A stretch of DNA of 64,000 nt from NCBI RefSeq assembly GCF_014652275.1, contig NZ_BMYM01000002.1:806001-870000 (forward strand), in the 5' to 3' direction. The notes beneath the pieces were generated by a model. It had not been told where the DNA came from. It searched no databases and was given only the letters and a program-made list of their open reading frames with translations. The translations under genes and the position numbers were made by a program. The first letter of the stretch is position 1. Each line of letters starts with the position of its first letter. This document shows, piece after piece, positions 18,800 to 24,757 of this stretch. Source of the DNA: Parahalioglobus pacificus. GTDB taxonomy: Bacteria > Pseudomonadota > Gammaproteobacteria > Pseudomonadales > Halieaceae.

Positions 18800-19807
18800 T
18801 CAGCCACCCGTCATATTCATGAAGCGCACGATCTGGGGTTCGTCGTCGCTGTGAAAGTGGTGTTTTTCAGGCTTGATGTCCATGGCATCAACAATTGCAC
18901 GCTTCAGCGACTCGGCGCTGGCATCGGACGCTCGAAGGCGTTCACGCAAATCCACGGAATGTTCATTTCCAAGGCACAGCAGCAAGCGCCCCTCTACGGT
19001 AATGCGCACCCGATTGCACAAATGGCAGAAGTTGTTGCTGTGGGGCGAAATGAAGCCTACCCGCGAGCCGGTGTTATCCAAGCTGAAGTAACGCGCCGGC
19101 CCTGCGTTGCCACTGGGATCGCCCAGTGCGGTCAGGTCGTAGCGTTCAGCAATCTGTTGGCGAAGTTCGTCGCTGCTGCACAGGCTCAGCTTGCGATCAT
19201 GCTCGACAATCGCACCCAGGGGCATCTCTTCAATGAACGCAATATCGATGCCGCGATCAACAGTAAAGTCGACCAGGTCCAGAACCTCATCGTCATTGCG
19301 ACCCTTTAAAACCACGCTGTTCAGCTTGATGCCGTCGAAGCCTGCAGCGATAGCCGCATCAATGCCTGCAATGACTTGGTCCAGGTTGCCGTGGCGTGTG
19401 AGGCGGCGAAACTTCCGGGCTTGCAGGCTGTCCAGGCTGATATTCAGCCGCTTAACACCGGCCTCCCTCAGAGGGCCAGCCAGGCGGGGCAGTTGCGAAG
19501 CGTTGGTGGTGAGTACCAGCTCATCCAGTCCGGGCAGGGCGCCCAATCGCTGCACCAGCGACAGAATGTTATTGCGAATTAGCGGCTCACCACCGGTGAG
19601 GCGAATCTTACGCACGCCTAACTCGGTGAACGCCTGACCCAGCTGGAACAGTTCCTCCAGGGATAGCACCCGCGCCTTGGGTACAAAGGTCATATCCTCG
19701 GCCATGCAGTAAACACAGCGAAAATCGCATCGGTCTGTGACGGAAAGTCGCAAGTAGGTGACTTGGCGGCCGAAACGGTCGACGAGCTGTGAGGGCAGTG
19801 ATGACAT
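18800..19807 (-). CDS. moaA: GTP 3',8-cyclase MoaA
   Basis: Radical-SAM enzyme of molybdenum cofactor synthesis that converts GTP to 3',8-cyclo-GTP. The 335-residue product has the N-terminal cluster cysteines Cys27, Cys31 and Cys34, the GGEPLIR motif, the C-terminal second cluster region [21 protein letters not shown], and the conserved Gly-Gly terminus. No other mo-cofactor gene is in the window. It lies upstream of the MoxR-VWA genes on the same strand, which fits, but does not prove, a link to assembly of a molybdoenzyme. Confidence 0.96.
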
Positions 19808-19913
19808 AAGAGCTACGAGTCTAGTCGGTTACGCTGTCGCCCACCAGAGCAGCTGCGCTTTACAGCGTGTCGCGGCTGGGACAGGATTGCCAGCAGCGAA
19901 AGGAGACGCCCCT

Positions 19914-20984
19914 ATGCGCCAAACTTGGAAAGTGATGATACGTAGTCAGCTGGCGCTGGCTTTTGTGCTTGCCATTATGAATACCTCTATGGGGTATGCG
20001 CAGGCTGACTGTGAGCCCGTTGATGGGGTTGTACCTATTTGCGGTCTGGTGGGACCCGAAGACCTGGAGAGAACGCCTGACAACCGGTACATCGTGATCA
20101 GCTCCATGGGATCCCCCGGTGGCTTATTGGTGTTGGATCCGCAAACCGACGCGCTAACGCGCATCTATGGCGAGGGCGTGGGCGAAAATTCCCCCGAGCC
20201 GGGTTGGGGCGACCCCGCCTGTACCGCGGCCCCTGACTGGGTCCTCAGTCACGGTATTGATGTGCGTGTCAGAGCTGATGGTCGCTGGCAGGTGTTGGTG
20301 GTGAATCATCAGCAGCGTGAATCGGTGGAGTTTTTTGAGCTGCTGCCGGGCGACCCAGCGCCGACGGCTGTGTGGCGCGGCTGCGTTAGTGGCCCTGATA
20401 ACGCCAACTTCAATGATACGGTGGCTCTGGCCGACGGCGGTTTTTTAGTGACACACATGGCTGATCAGGGGCTTTTGCCCTGGCAGCTGCTGCGCGCAGT
20501 ATTGGGCTTTGACACGGGCTTCCTGTATCGCTGGTCGCCCGAGACCGGTTTTGCGCAGGTGCCCAATACCCAGGCACGTTTTCCCAACGGTGTCTCCCTT
20601 GCACCCGATGGGCAGAGCTTCTATCTCAACGATTATTTCGGCAACACCGTGCGTCGCCACAACCTCGAGACCGGTGAATTATTGGCACAGGCCGAGGTGA
20701 TGCAAACCGATAACGGTGCCTGGACAGAGGGCGGGAAGTTGCTGGTGGCCTCACACCCGGTAAGCGTGCTCGATCTGGTGGTATCGCTGGGGCACGGATT
20801 CGAAACTCCAAGCCTGCTGCCTTTTGACATTGTGGAACTGGACCCTGAGACCCTGGCGTCGCGATTGCTGATTAGCCGTGAAGGGCCGCCCATGGGTGCT
20901 GGCACGGTAGCCTTACAGCATGGAGACTTTCTGTACATCGGGTCTTATTTAGGCGACCGTTTGATTAAGGTGCCTCTCAATTGA
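19914..20984 (+). CDS. Exported SMP-30/strictosidine-synthase-like beta-propeller protein
   Basis: A 356-residue secreted protein. The N-terminus has a long signal peptide ending around GYAQA (residue about 30). The rest carries repeated propeller-blade elements, including YIVISSMGSPGGLLVLD, the FPNGVSLAPDGQSFYLNDYF blade typical of SMP-30/gluconolactonase-like proteins, and MGAGTVALQHGDFLYIGS near the end. Lactonase or arylesterase activity is possible from the fold. The ATG at 19914 has AAGGAG 8 nt upstream; the longer open frame overlaps moaA. The stop overlaps the start of the permease gene, so the two are translationally coupled and may share a substrate. Confidence 0.78.
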   Translation: MRQTWKVMIRSQLALAFVLAIMNTSMGYAQADCEPVDGVVPICGLVGPEDLERTPDNRYIVISSMGSPGGLLVLDPQTDALTRIYGEGVGENSPEPGWGDPACTAAPDWVLSHGIDVRVRADGRWQVLVVNHQQRESVEFFELLPGDPAPTAVWRGCVSGPDNANFNDTVALADGGFLVTHMADQGLLPWQLLRAVLGFDTGFLYRWSPETGFAQVPNTQARFPNGVSLAPDGQSFYLNDYFGNTVRRHNLETGELLAQAEVMQTDNGAWTEGGKLLVASHPVSVLDLVVSLGHGFETPSLLPFDIVELDPETLASRLLISREGPPMGAGTVALQHGDFLYIGSYLGDRLIKVPLN

Positions 20985-22360
20985 TGCCCTGGCGCGATCA
21001 TGCGCTGTGGCTGGGGCCAGCCTCGGCCCTTGCGGCAGGCCTGTGGCTGTTTGCCACCGACTACAGCGTGGCGATGAGCGTGGTGCTGAGTGTTGCCGTG
21101 CTGTGTGTTGTCTGGTGGGTGTTTGAACCCATCCCTATCCCCGTCACATCCCTGCTGCCGCTGGCCGTGTTGCCGTTGGCCGGGATTCTGACGCCGGCCG
21201 AGGTCGGTGCCGCCTACGGCTCGCCCTTGATCCTGCTACTACTGGGTGGGTTCCTGCTCTCCAAGTCGATGGAGCACTCGGGCGCGCACCGACGTATAGC
21301 GCTGGGCATGGTGAACCTTTTTGGTGCCAGCAGTCCGCGTCGGTTGGTATTGGGTTTTATGGTCGCCGCGGCCGCCCTGAGTATGTGGATCTCCAACACG
21401 GCAACCACCCTGATGTTATTGCCGGTGGCGCTGGCTGTGCTGGATGGCACTAGTCAGCGTGAGCGCTTGGCGGTCCCATTGCTTCTGGGTACTGCCTATG
21501 CGGCCAGCGTGGGTGGCTTGGGAACGCCAATAGGAACGCCGCCCAACTTGATTTTTATGCAGGTCTACCAGGAGTACACCGGGCAGTCCGTGAGCTTTAC
21601 CCAGTGGATGAGTTGGGGCGTGCCCGTGGTCGCCGTTATGGTGCCCGCGATGGCTTATGTGTTGACTCGCGGTATGGGTGGCGGCCTAGCGATCACTCTG
21701 CCCGAGGTTGGCCGCTGGCGGGTAGAGGAGCGGCGCGTGATGCTGGTTTTTGCCGTCACGGCACTGGCCTGGATTACCCGCAGTGAACCCTTTGGTGGTT
21801 GGAAAACCTGGCTCGGTGTGCCTTGGGCGAATGATGCTTCGGTTGCCCTGCTGGCGGTGGTGGTTATGTGTCTGGTGCCCAACGGTCGCGGCGGTCGGCT
21901 GCTGGACTGGGAGCGAGCCAGCACCATTCCCTGGGGCGTGCTGTTGCTGTTCTCAGGGGGAATCTGTCTGGCGCGTGGCTTTGTCAACTCCGGGCTCTCG
22001 GGTTTGATCGGTGATGGTCTTGCCGGTCTTACCGCAATGCCATTGTGGGTGCTGATGGCCAGTGTGTGCCTGGTGGTGACCTTCATGACCGAAACCACCT
22101 CCAACACGGCCAGCACAACGCTGTTGATGCCCGTGCTGGCCGCTGCAGCATTGGCGGCGGGCATTCCGCCCGAATGGATTATGGTGCCGGCCGCGATGAG
22201 TGCCAGCTGTGCCTTCATGTTGCCCGTGGCCACAGCGCCGAATTCGGTGGTGTTTGGCAGCGGCCTGATTACAACCGCACGCATGGCCAGGGAAGGGGTC
22301 TTGCTGAACCTGCTGGGGGTGCTGGTTATCAGCACCCTGTGCTATCTGCTGATTACCTGA
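20984..22360 (+). CDS. DASS/SLC13-family anion symporter
   Basis: A 458-residue inner-membrane protein with 11 or more hydrophobic helices. Two copies of the Ser-Asn-Thr signature, ISNTATTLMLLPVA and TTSNTASTTLLMPVL, and the GTPIGTPPNLIFM stretch identify the divalent anion:sodium symporter family, which imports di- and tricarboxylates or sulfate. The ATG overlaps the stop of the beta-propeller gene (TGATG). Tight coupling to an exported lactonase-like protein suggests uptake of a carboxylate product made outside the cytoplasm; this is inference. Confidence 0.9.
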   Translation: MPWRDHALWLGPASALAAGLWLFATDYSVAMSVVLSVAVLCVVWWVFEPIPIPVTSLLPLAVLPLAGILTPAEVGAAYGSPLILLLLGGFLLSKSMEHSGAHRRIALGMVNLFGASSPRRLVLGFMVAAAALSMWISNTATTLMLLPVALAVLDGTSQRERLAVPLLLGTAYAASVGGLGTPIGTPPNLIFMQVYQEYTGQSVSFTQWMSWGVPVVAVMVPAMAYVLTRGMGGGLAITLPEVGRWRVEERRVMLVFAVTALAWITRSEPFGGWKTWLGVPWANDASVALLAVVVMCLVPNGRGGRLLDWERASTIPWGVLLLFSGGICLARGFVNSGLSGLIGDGLAGLTAMPLWVLMASVCLVVTFMTETTSNTASTTLLMPVLAAAALAAGIPPEWIMVPAAMSASCAFMLPVATAPNSVVFGSGLITTARMAREGVLLNLLGVLVISTLCYLLIT

Positions 22361-22506: not shown

Positions 22507-23496
22507 ATGAGCAAGCGATATCCAATGCCCATTCCTCACGGCTGGTATGCCGTGGCCTATTCCGACGAATTAGAAGTGGGTCAGTCCAGGGCTGTACGCT
22601 ACTTTGGGGAAGACTTGGTGCTCTTTCGTACTGAGTCTGGCAATGCTGCCTTGCTGGATGCCTATTGTCCGCACCTGGGTGCACATCTGGGCTACGGCAT
22701 TCATGAGAACACCGGCCGTGGCGGCGGCATTCAGGGCGAGTCAATCGTCTGCCCCTTCCACGCCTGGAAATTCAACGGGGAAGGTGAGTGTACGGACGTG
22801 CCTTACGCCAAGAATATGCCGCCCAAGGTGCAGGGCACCCGTTGTTTGAAATCGTACCGGATTACCGAGACTAACCAGGTCATTTGGGCCTGGTACCACC
22901 CGGATGGTATCGACCCCTTGTGGGACGTCGTGGTACATGACGAGGCCAATAGCGATGACTGGGCACCGCTAAAACGGTACGAGTGGCACATTACAACCCA
23001 CCCCCAGGAGATGGCCGAGAATGCTGCGGATCCCGCGCACTTCCGCTACGTGCATCGCACTGCCTCTATGCCGCAGTGGGAAACGACCTATGAGGGCCCG
23101 CGCGCCACGGGTGTGCAGCGCGCCAAGATGCCAACGCCGCGCGGCGAGATTGACGGCGCCATTTACACCAACTCAATGGGACCCGGTCAGGGCTTCACCA
23201 AGTTTGAAGGCATCGCAGATACCTTCCTGATGGGCCTGACGACGCCGATTGACGACGAGAATGTCATTCTCCGGTTCGCCTTCACCCAGCCCAAAGTGAA
23301 TGGTCAGGTCAAAGAAGGTGGTGTTAATGCCGCCATCATGGCGGACATTGTGGGCCAGCTGGAAGAAGACAAGCCCATCTGGGAGCACAAGGTTTATCGC
23401 CGTCTGCCTGTGCTATGTGACGGTGACGGGCCCATCGCCAAGTTTCGCAAATGGTACGGTCAGTTCTATAGCAACTACGATCCCAGCGCGCTGTAA
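22507..23496 (+). CDS. Rieske non-heme iron oxygenase, KshA-like
   Basis: A 329-residue oxygenase component. The Rieske 2Fe-2S centre is formed by CPHLG near residue 57 and CPFHAWKF near 83. The mononuclear iron site is the ExxxDxxHxxxxH motif in ENAADPAHFRYVH near 176. Domain order and length resemble the 3-ketosteroid 9-alpha-hydroxylase oxygenase KshA and cholesterol-7-desaturase-like enzymes. The ATG at 22507 has GAGGGAG upstream. No ferredoxin reductase partner is adjacent. Genes for a PqiA domain and a START-like lipoprotein follow 47 bp downstream. Sterol or steroid substrate is a family-based inference. Confidence 0.88.
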   Translation: MSKRYPMPIPHGWYAVAYSDELEVGQSRAVRYFGEDLVLFRTESGNAALLDAYCPHLGAHLGYGIHENTGRGGGIQGESIVCPFHAWKFNGEGECTDVPYAKNMPPKVQGTRCLKSYRITETNQVIWAWYHPDGIDPLWDVVVHDEANSDDWAPLKRYEWHITTHPQEMAENAADPAHFRYVHRTASMPQWETTYEGPRATGVQRAKMPTPRGEIDGAIYTNSMGPGQGFTKFEGIADTFLMGLTTPIDDENVILRFAFTQPKVNGQVKEGGVNAAIMADIVGQLEEDKPIWEHKVYRRLPVLCDGDGPIAKFRKWYGQFYSNYDPSAL

Positions 23497-23521
23497 GCAC
23501 GCAGCCACACTGGCTATCATG

Positions 23522-23542
23522 CAGCCTTCATCCTGGAGGCTG
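23522..23542 (+). promoter_or_regulatory. Hairpin covering the ribosome binding site of the PqiA-like gene
   Basis: CAGCCT and AGGCTG form a 6-bp stem with a 9-nt loop directly before the ATG at 23544. The 3' arm contains most of the GGAGG Shine-Dalgarno sequence, so translation could depend on ribosomes arriving from the Rieske gene. Confidence 0.4.
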
Positions 23543-23543
23543 T

Positions 23544-24155
23544 ATGAGCGCACAACGTAAATTCCTCTGCCTACTGCTGGCGCTGGCATCACTGGCCCTG
23601 TTGTACCCCGGCGTTACCCAACCGGTAATGACGCTGACAGGCGACATCGACAAGTCGAAGATAGCAGCGCTGGGCGTGGATCTGGTGGCCGGCGAAAACG
23701 CGGACCCTCAAACCCGGCGAATGCTGGCGATGTTTTCCAGTTTACTGGGCCTTGATCAAATTGAAGGGCAGCTGCGCGCCTATGAGACAACACGCTCTAT
23801 CTGGGGCACTGTGCAGAGCCTGTCGCAGGGCGGCAACCTGTTGGTTGCTCTACTGATCGTCACCTTCAGCGTGGTTATCCCGGTGTTGAAACTTCTGCTG
23901 CAGCTGGCCGCGCTGGTCTTGCCCAATCCGGCCTGGCGTGTGGCATTGCTGCAACTGAACGCGGGCATGAGTAAATGGTCTATGGCGGATGTCTTCGTTA
24001 TGGGGCTGTTGGTCTCTTACATGGCCGGCAGCGCGGCTGGCCAGATGGGCGACATGCTCACTATGGACGCGCGACTCGAACCCGGCTTCTATTATTTCCT
24101 TGCCTATTGCCTGTTTTCGATAGCAGCAGGCACCCTGATGCGGAGAGCTGCATGA
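23544..24155 (+). CDS. PqiA-domain membrane protein (single domain)
   Basis: A 203-residue integral membrane protein with four predicted helices: residues about 6-25, 95-115, 120-140 and 175-195. The KWSMADVFVMGLLVSYM stretch is the hallmark of the paraquat-inducible protein A family. Escherichia coli PqiA carries two such domains and works with the MCE lipid-shuttle protein PqiB. Here only one domain is present and no MCE gene is adjacent. Instead the stop overlaps the start of a START-like lipoprotein (ATGATGA). Lipid movement across the periplasm is inferred. Confidence 0.85.
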   Translation: MSAQRKFLCLLLALASLALLYPGVTQPVMTLTGDIDKSKIAALGVDLVAGENADPQTRRMLAMFSSLLGLDQIEGQLRAYETTRSIWGTVQSLSQGGNLLVALLIVTFSVVIPVLKLLLQLAALVLPNPAWRVALLQLNAGMSKWSMADVFVMGLLVSYMAGSAAGQMGDMLTMDARLEPGFYYFLAYCLFSIAAGTLMRRAA

Positions 24156-24757
24156 TGAAATTCCCGGTAATCCTTGCCCTGTGTGTGTCGCTGCTGGTCT
24201 TGACGGGCTGCTCCGGGTCACCCAACCCCGAGCGTGGCGCTGGGGTGTCTGTGGTTGCCGACATCGATCACGATACAGCCTGGAGCCTGTTGCAGGATTT
24301 CTCTCTGGCACACAATTACGTGCCGGGACTGTCGCGCACGGAGATTATGTCGGATGCGACCAGCGGAGTCGGTGCGCACCGGCGTGTATACGATATGGAC
24401 GGCGGTTATATCGAAGAGACGATTTTCCGCTGGGAACCGGGCAGTGGCTTTACGATTCGATTGCACGAGGGTGAAAAACCGATGGCGCCATTTGAGTCTG
24501 TGTTCTTCGACTACGCGCTGTTCGATGCTGGCAAAGGGAAGACGCGGATTGAGCTGGCCTTGCGCTTTGTGATGCCCTGGGGTGGTCTGGGCGACTGGAT
24601 CGGGCGACAGTTTATTGTGCCCACTATGGAAGAGAGTCTGATCGAGGTGGCCGCGGGAATGAAATCGTTCTACGAGACGGGGAAGCCGGCTACCGACGCG
24701 GATCGGGCCAGACTGGCATCGCAGGTCTCAGTGACCCGCGATGCAGGCGACGCTTAG
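24152..24757 (+). CDS. START/SRPBCC-fold lipoprotein
   Basis: A 201-residue lipoprotein: signal peptide ending LTGC at Cys20, followed by one domain of about 150 residues with the SRPBCC (polyketide cyclase/START-like) pattern VVADIDHDTAWSLLQDF at its start and a C-terminal long helix. This fold has a deep hydrophobic ligand cavity. Ser at +2 suggests outer-membrane targeting. It is translationally coupled to the PqiA-like gene, so a periplasmic lipid-binding partner of that permease is plausible. Its last 4 bp overlap the end of the convergent peroxiredoxin gene. Confidence 0.8.
   Translation: MMKFPVILALCVSLLVLTGCSGSPNPERGAGVSVVADIDHDTAWSLLQDFSLAHNYVPGLSRTEIMSDATSGVGAHRRVYDMDGGYIEETIFRWEPGSGFTIRLHEGEKPMAPFESVFFDYALFDAGKGKTRIELALRFVMPWGGLGDWIGRQFIVPTMEESLIEVAAGMKSFYETGKPATDADRARLASQVSVTRDAGDA

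Follow-up and report, generated by a model that had tools for sequence, protein, structure and literature searches.

Closest Described Systems

The LetAB (YebS/YebT) and PqiABC lipid transport systems of E. coli are built on membrane proteins whose PqiA modules each carry N-terminal zinc-ribbon cysteines. PqiA domains occur with MCE genes in the literature on MCE operons (PMC5561183, PMC10897342), and most type III and IV MCE genes have two PqiA domains upstream (Sci Rep 2017, PMC5561183). A chimeric Mla-Pqi system is described in Brucella (PMC12436622). SRPBCC (START-like) proteins, including PYL, PR-10, Aro/Cyc, and YPO0625, share a helix-grip fold. KshA is the oxygenase of 3-ketosteroid 9alpha-hydroxylase, and SdmA is also a Rieske-type oxygenase. 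In Methylococcus, the sterol carriers BstABC are encoded beside the sterol demethylases SdmA and SdmB, which places envelope carriers of a hydrophobic ligand next to sterol-oxidizing enzymes, and direct sterol binding was shown (PMC10942540). The locus described here would resemble this arrangement, but BstA is an RND-family transporter and BstB and BstC have other carrier folds, not those of PqiA or SRPBCC.

The Locus in Parahalioglobus pacificus

The window is a 64,000-nucleotide stretch of the Parahalioglobus pacificus genome. The first gene of the locus (22507..23496, + strand) encodes a KshA-type Rieske mononuclear iron oxygenase of 329 aa, assigned by Pfam (Rieske, 3e-20; KshA_C, 4e-33) and PDB matches. 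Its top PDB match is KshA (4qdc, 7e-39), and the iron-ligand residues of KshA are kept in the alignment with 4qdc. It has the Rieske cluster motif as well as the KshA_C catalytic domain, and no export signal. Compared with KshA, it is distant and shorter, and its gene has no steroid cluster or reductase alongside. The genome encodes three KshA_C proteins including this one, and one of the others scores higher.

The second gene (23544..24155, + strand) encodes a PqiA/LetA-type inner-membrane protein of 203 aa, identified by PF04403 (7e-19; 68.7 bits against a curated cut-off of 23.8), and the genome has no other PqiA gene. In the AlphaFold model (pLDDT 82), four helices cross the membrane and a beta sheet lies on the periplasmic side, as in LetAB and PqiABC. 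The model has the LetA fold, with E. coli LetA (9n8w) as the nearest solved structure (Foldseek 4e-4; Z 16.7, 3.0 A over 148 residues) and claudins and TARPs as the next structural matches. However, the protein consists of one module, not two (the Pfam match spans residues 77-198 only), and it lacks the N-terminal cysteine pairs, having only Cys9 and Cys189 with profile positions 1-27 unmatched. The locus also differs from LetAB and PqiABC in having neither an MCE gene nor PqiC. The only MCE gene of the genome belongs to an MlaE/ABC/MlaD/DUF330 locus located on a different contig (L147:3560-7044, G000 contig C1). This lipoprotein-containing locus possibly resembles the chimeric Mla-Pqi system of Brucella (PMC12436622).

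The third gene (24152..24757, + strand) encodes an SRPBCC (START-like) lipoprotein of 201 aa that matches Polyketide_cyc2 (PF10604, 1.6e-10). The model is a helix-grip fold with pLDDT >90 over nearly its whole length; it matches PYL10/PYL2/7tmu at Z 16.8, and the likeness to PYL, Aro/Cyc, and YPO0625 extends over the whole fold (Z about 16). Unlike those proteins, this one is a lipoprotein, with a Leu-Thr-Gly-Cys lipobox (LTGC; 24200..24211, + strand) followed by Ser at +2, and its gene overlaps PqiA. The two genes overlap by four bases (ATGA) within GCATGATGAAA, which hold the PqiA stop codon (TGA, 24153-24155) and the SRPBCC start codon (ATG, 24152-24154).

A first-pass annotation of this DNA had called a KshA-like Rieske oxygenase, a lone PqiA domain, and a lipoprotein with a START/SRPBCC fold whose gene shares ATGATGA with PqiA. 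All three assignments were confirmed for P. pacificus, and the coordinates of the genes and their overlap were exact. Two features had been overlooked at first pass, namely the DASS symporter gene upstream and a -10-like motif ahead of PqiA, both described below. Absence of an MCE gene from the operon, fixed in advance as a test, was also confirmed, both here and in the corresponding position of the relatives described below.

Conservation and Variation in Halieaceae

Gene order was compared across 146 related genomes, and a PqiA of this kind was present in 36 Halieaceae genomes. Among named relatives, Halioglobus, Pseudohalioglobus, Parahaliea, Seongchinamella, and HTCC2148 are nearest to the window. 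In 31 of the 36, PqiA lies between a DASS symporter gene and a peroxiredoxin/methyltransferase/TetR block (hereafter, the slot), and in five it is far from this position. The upstream neighbor in the window is a DASS-family anion symporter (20981..22360, + strand; NCBIfam dass, 3e-77). This gene is the most constant neighbor, preceding PqiA in about 29 of the 31 slots, and DASS–PqiA alone is the commonest slot form. An SMP-30/gluconolactonase-like gene overlaps the DASS gene (window 19758-22360), and this pair also occurs in relatives (L040, L043).

PqiA is followed by SRPBCC in 14 of 31 slots from five genera (g1, g3, eight genomes of g12, three of g16, and g26). Where a slot holds both genes, SRPBCC is always directly behind PqiA, and the overlap is mostly 4, 8, or 11 nt in these 14 genomes. 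PqiA is retained without an intact SRPBCC gene in the remaining 17 slots. One genome (G039) has a 45-residue SRPBCC remnant fused behind PqiA, indicating loss of SRPBCC rather than chance juxtaposition. Judged by gene order, the PqiA–SRPBCC pairing is conserved beyond chance. The adjacency proposed for P. pacificus extends to other genomes of the family, which had been set beforehand as a test of that proposal.

Six of 31 slots have the Rieske gene between DASS and PqiA, and all six also hold SRPBCC (hereafter, trio loci); the g26 trio locus is missing the DASS gene. In two g5 genomes, the order is DASS–Rieske–SRPBCC without PqiA (G004, and G029, where it is cut by a contig end), and the g21 slot has only DASS–Rieske, with PqiA relocated. 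A Rieske gene, whose frequency beside the PqiA–SRPBCC pair had been raised as a question at first pass, adjoins the pair in the six trio loci, and Rieske also accompanies SRPBCC where PqiA is missing. No two of the slot genes are strictly interdependent, because PqiA occurs without SRPBCC (17/31) and Rieske–SRPBCC occurs without PqiA (g5). The slot Rieske genes form a single clade (support 94/97), and SRPBCC is present in eight of the nine slots with a Rieske gene of this clade. Rieske-bearing lineages are at several deep positions in the DASS tree. The distribution fits an older, fuller operon that would have undergone repeated losses, with gain as the alternative.

Other arrangements were also seen. 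In genus g14 (L029, L031, L159, L162), the place of SRPBCC behind PqiA is occupied by an opposite-strand gene that is dihydroorotate dehydrogenase-like, as assigned by Pfam on the L029 copy. In G020 (L155:5864-8407), an instance of the DASS–Rieske slot, the relocated PqiA and another DASS-like gene are arranged head to head. Rieske relatives outside the slot (62-69% identity) adjoin TonB-dependent receptors in at least three Halieaceae genomes (L130, L141, L126), which hints at a possible imported substrate. Further non-slot relatives adjoin thiolase genes.

Searches beyond the family used profiles of both proteins. No PqiA–SRPBCC adjacency was found outside Halieaceae in 391 genomes of the order, where three non-Halieaceae genomes hold both genes on different contigs. 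The SRPBCC subfamily is nearly absent from the class, with one strong match besides the P. pacificus genome in 369 genomes, and the distant PqiA relatives in Granulosicoccaceae and Gemmatimonadota have no neighboring SRPBCC gene. Within Halieaceae, G055 (L134:562-4879) has a signal-less SRPBCC paralogue flanked by an SDR gene on one side and by the alpha and beta genes of a ring-hydroxylating dioxygenase on the other, and all of these genes are co-directional.

Predicted Export of SRPBCC Proteins

Localization of the SRPBCC proteins varies. The lipobox is found in the P. pacificus protein only (one of 14 PqiA-linked SRPBCC proteins); every slot orthologue lacks it. In the five other trio loci, four proteins have an N-terminal membrane segment and one has a Sec-type signal. 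The eight g12 proteins begin directly at the fold and have no signal; in four of their genes, no more than nine codons separate the start from an in-frame stop upstream, which makes an overlooked signal impossible there. Predicted export or anchoring therefore occurs in all six trio loci and in none of the nine other readable slot loci (eight PqiA–SRPBCC pairs without Rieske and one Rieske–SRPBCC locus without PqiA). In a tree of the fold alone, the P. pacificus protein is among signal-less proteins, and parsimony gives two changes; a single export clade is not favored, but neither is it rejected (p = 0.085). The predicted export pattern is thus one or two evolutionary events, not six.

Export is not universal among PqiA-paired SRPBCC proteins, as a periplasmic shuttle would call for, with six of 14 exported or anchored. 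Because the other eight are signal-less, a general role of SRPBCC as the periplasmic stand-in for MCE proteins is excluded. Because SRPBCC export accompanies only the full set of three genes, an MCE-free lipid hand-off to the oxygenase is possible in the trio lineages.

Control Region of PqiA

A hairpin with a 14-bp stem (23517..23547, + strand; z -3.3) covers the Shine-Dalgarno sequence of PqiA together with its start codon. Most orthologues have a weaker hairpin or none, and the other trio loci keep it only in part. A -10-like motif, TATCAT (23515..23520, + strand), overlaps the 5' arm of the hairpin and is conserved upstream of PqiA as a putative promoter element. In 21 of 30 loci, TAT(C/G)AT, mostly with GG in front, precedes the start of PqiA by 20-30 nt; this count comes from related and hence non-independent sequences and includes the relocated copies L023 and L028. 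The motif persists as its surroundings diverge, and no convincing -35 box stands out ahead of it. Because the motif accompanies PqiA to new locations, PqiA probably has its own promoter, and a promoter serving PqiA and the gene behind it seems the simplest reading. Its presence suggests regulation of PqiA separate from Rieske. We rejected the idea that the hairpin couples translation of PqiA to that of Rieske, since most orthologues do not retain it and it overlaps the -10-like motif. The hairpin noted at first pass is real in this sequence, but the dependence on upstream translation attributed to it is weakened.

Interpretation of the Locus

The best-supported explanation is that PqiA and SRPBCC act on one shared hydrophobic molecule at the inner membrane. 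What the analysis shows is the predicted folds, the gene overlap, and the localization pattern. PqiA would be a one-module LetA-type protein with its own promoter-like element, and SRPBCC, translated from the overlapping start, would be its partner. SRPBCC would bind a hydrophobic molecule, and PqiA would move the same molecule between membrane leaflets. In lineages that keep Rieske (P. pacificus, g3, g16, g26), SRPBCC would be sent to the periplasmic side by a lipoprotein modification, anchor, or signal peptide and would hand the compound to PqiA or take it over from there; the cytoplasmic Rieske enzyme would then hydroxylate it. In lineages without Rieske, SRPBCC would be cytoplasmic or lost, and PqiA would persist. 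A periplasmic SRPBCC would thus go with the joint presence of Rieske and PqiA, and a cytoplasmic one with every other combination. We infer the PqiA–SRPBCC contact, the ligand, the direction in which it moves, and any connection with the oxygenase. This explanation is supported by the occurrence of the pair in five genera, the G039 remnant, the Rieske clade and its co-occurrence with SRPBCC in 8/9 slots, export in 6/6 trio loci, the LetA and helix-grip model matches, and the lack of MCE genes in the slot. It is weakened by the 17/31 slots with PqiA and no SRPBCC, the g5 loci without PqiA, the promoter-like motif of PqiA, and the one or two localization changes behind the export pattern. The wider reading, a modular accessory operon in which PqiA and SRPBCC co-handle a ligand that Rieske hydroxylates in trio lineages, is offered tentatively.

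About equally likely, the stretch from DASS to the peroxiredoxin gene is a permissive site, where PqiA may do a general inner-membrane lipid or stress job alone and Rieske and SRPBCC would be independent passengers; we regard this as possible and hold it just as tentatively. It is consistent with the predominance of DASS–PqiA slots and their freely varying gene content, the entry of other genes such as that of g14, the -10-like motif of PqiA itself, the five Halieaceae genomes in which it is distant from the slot, and its occurrence outside the family without SRPBCC. Against independent passengers are the invariable position of SRPBCC immediately behind PqiA, mostly overlapping by 4-11 nt in five genera, and the joint presence of Rieske and SRPBCC in all but one of the slots with Rieske.

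In an unlikely reading, Rieske and SRPBCC are the functional pair, SRPBCC binding or presenting the hydrophobic substrate of the oxygenase, and PqiA is incidental. The two genes are adjacent without PqiA in G004 and the truncated G029, the G055 paralogue adjoins a ring-hydroxylating dioxygenase gene pair, and the TonB receptors beside the nearest Rieske relatives in some genomes would agree with an imported substrate. However, the eight g12 genomes hold PqiA–SRPBCC without a slot Rieske, and the trio SRPBCC proteins are predicted to be exported, away from the cytoplasmic oxygenase.

Joint handling of a ligand by PqiA and SRPBCC can also be taken further for the trio lineages: an exported START-like protein, together with a LetA-type protein of one module, could form an MCE-free route that delivers a hydrophobic compound over the inner membrane to a dedicated Rieske oxygenase, with START export having evolved only with the oxygenase. 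We consider this stronger form rather improbable. The first-pass interpretation as a whole is partly supported, by adjacency, the lack of MCE, and export in trio loci; the lipobox confined to this genome, the signal-less orthologues, the probable promoter of PqiA itself, and the Rieske gene, which is mostly absent, speak against it, and any transport toward the oxygenase would be hypothetical. Its specific form, in which a lipoprotein of the START type takes the place of PqiA's MCE bridge and supplies a KshA-like oxygenase with a sterol, is very doubtful: no LetB- or PqiB-type MCE gene is near PqiA, the lipobox and START fold are real, and a cholesterol-degrading Halieaceae isolate is known (PMC5790920), but no orthologue has the lipobox and most are signal-less, Rieske is missing from most slots, and no steroid cluster is near the slot or the lone HsaC-like gene.

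Growth on cholesterol and its degradation are known for that isolate (PMC5790920), and a steroid substrate is possible. No steroid genes were found around the slot, and the genome has a lone BphC/HsaC-type gene scoring 270 bits against a cut-off of 450.

The domains at this locus were already known. In the open literature searched, we found no description of a START lipoprotein system with either PqiA or Rieske, or of a conserved MCE-free PqiA–SRPBCC gene pair; as far as searched, such a pair is confined to one family. The role of PqiA/LetA domains without an MCE partner appears little studied, and the overlapping, conserved pair provides a concrete candidate partner for MCE-less PqiA. Halieaceae, which include cultured strains, vary naturally in whether they have the partner, the oxygenase, and the export signal, and comparison within this family can put the question to the test.
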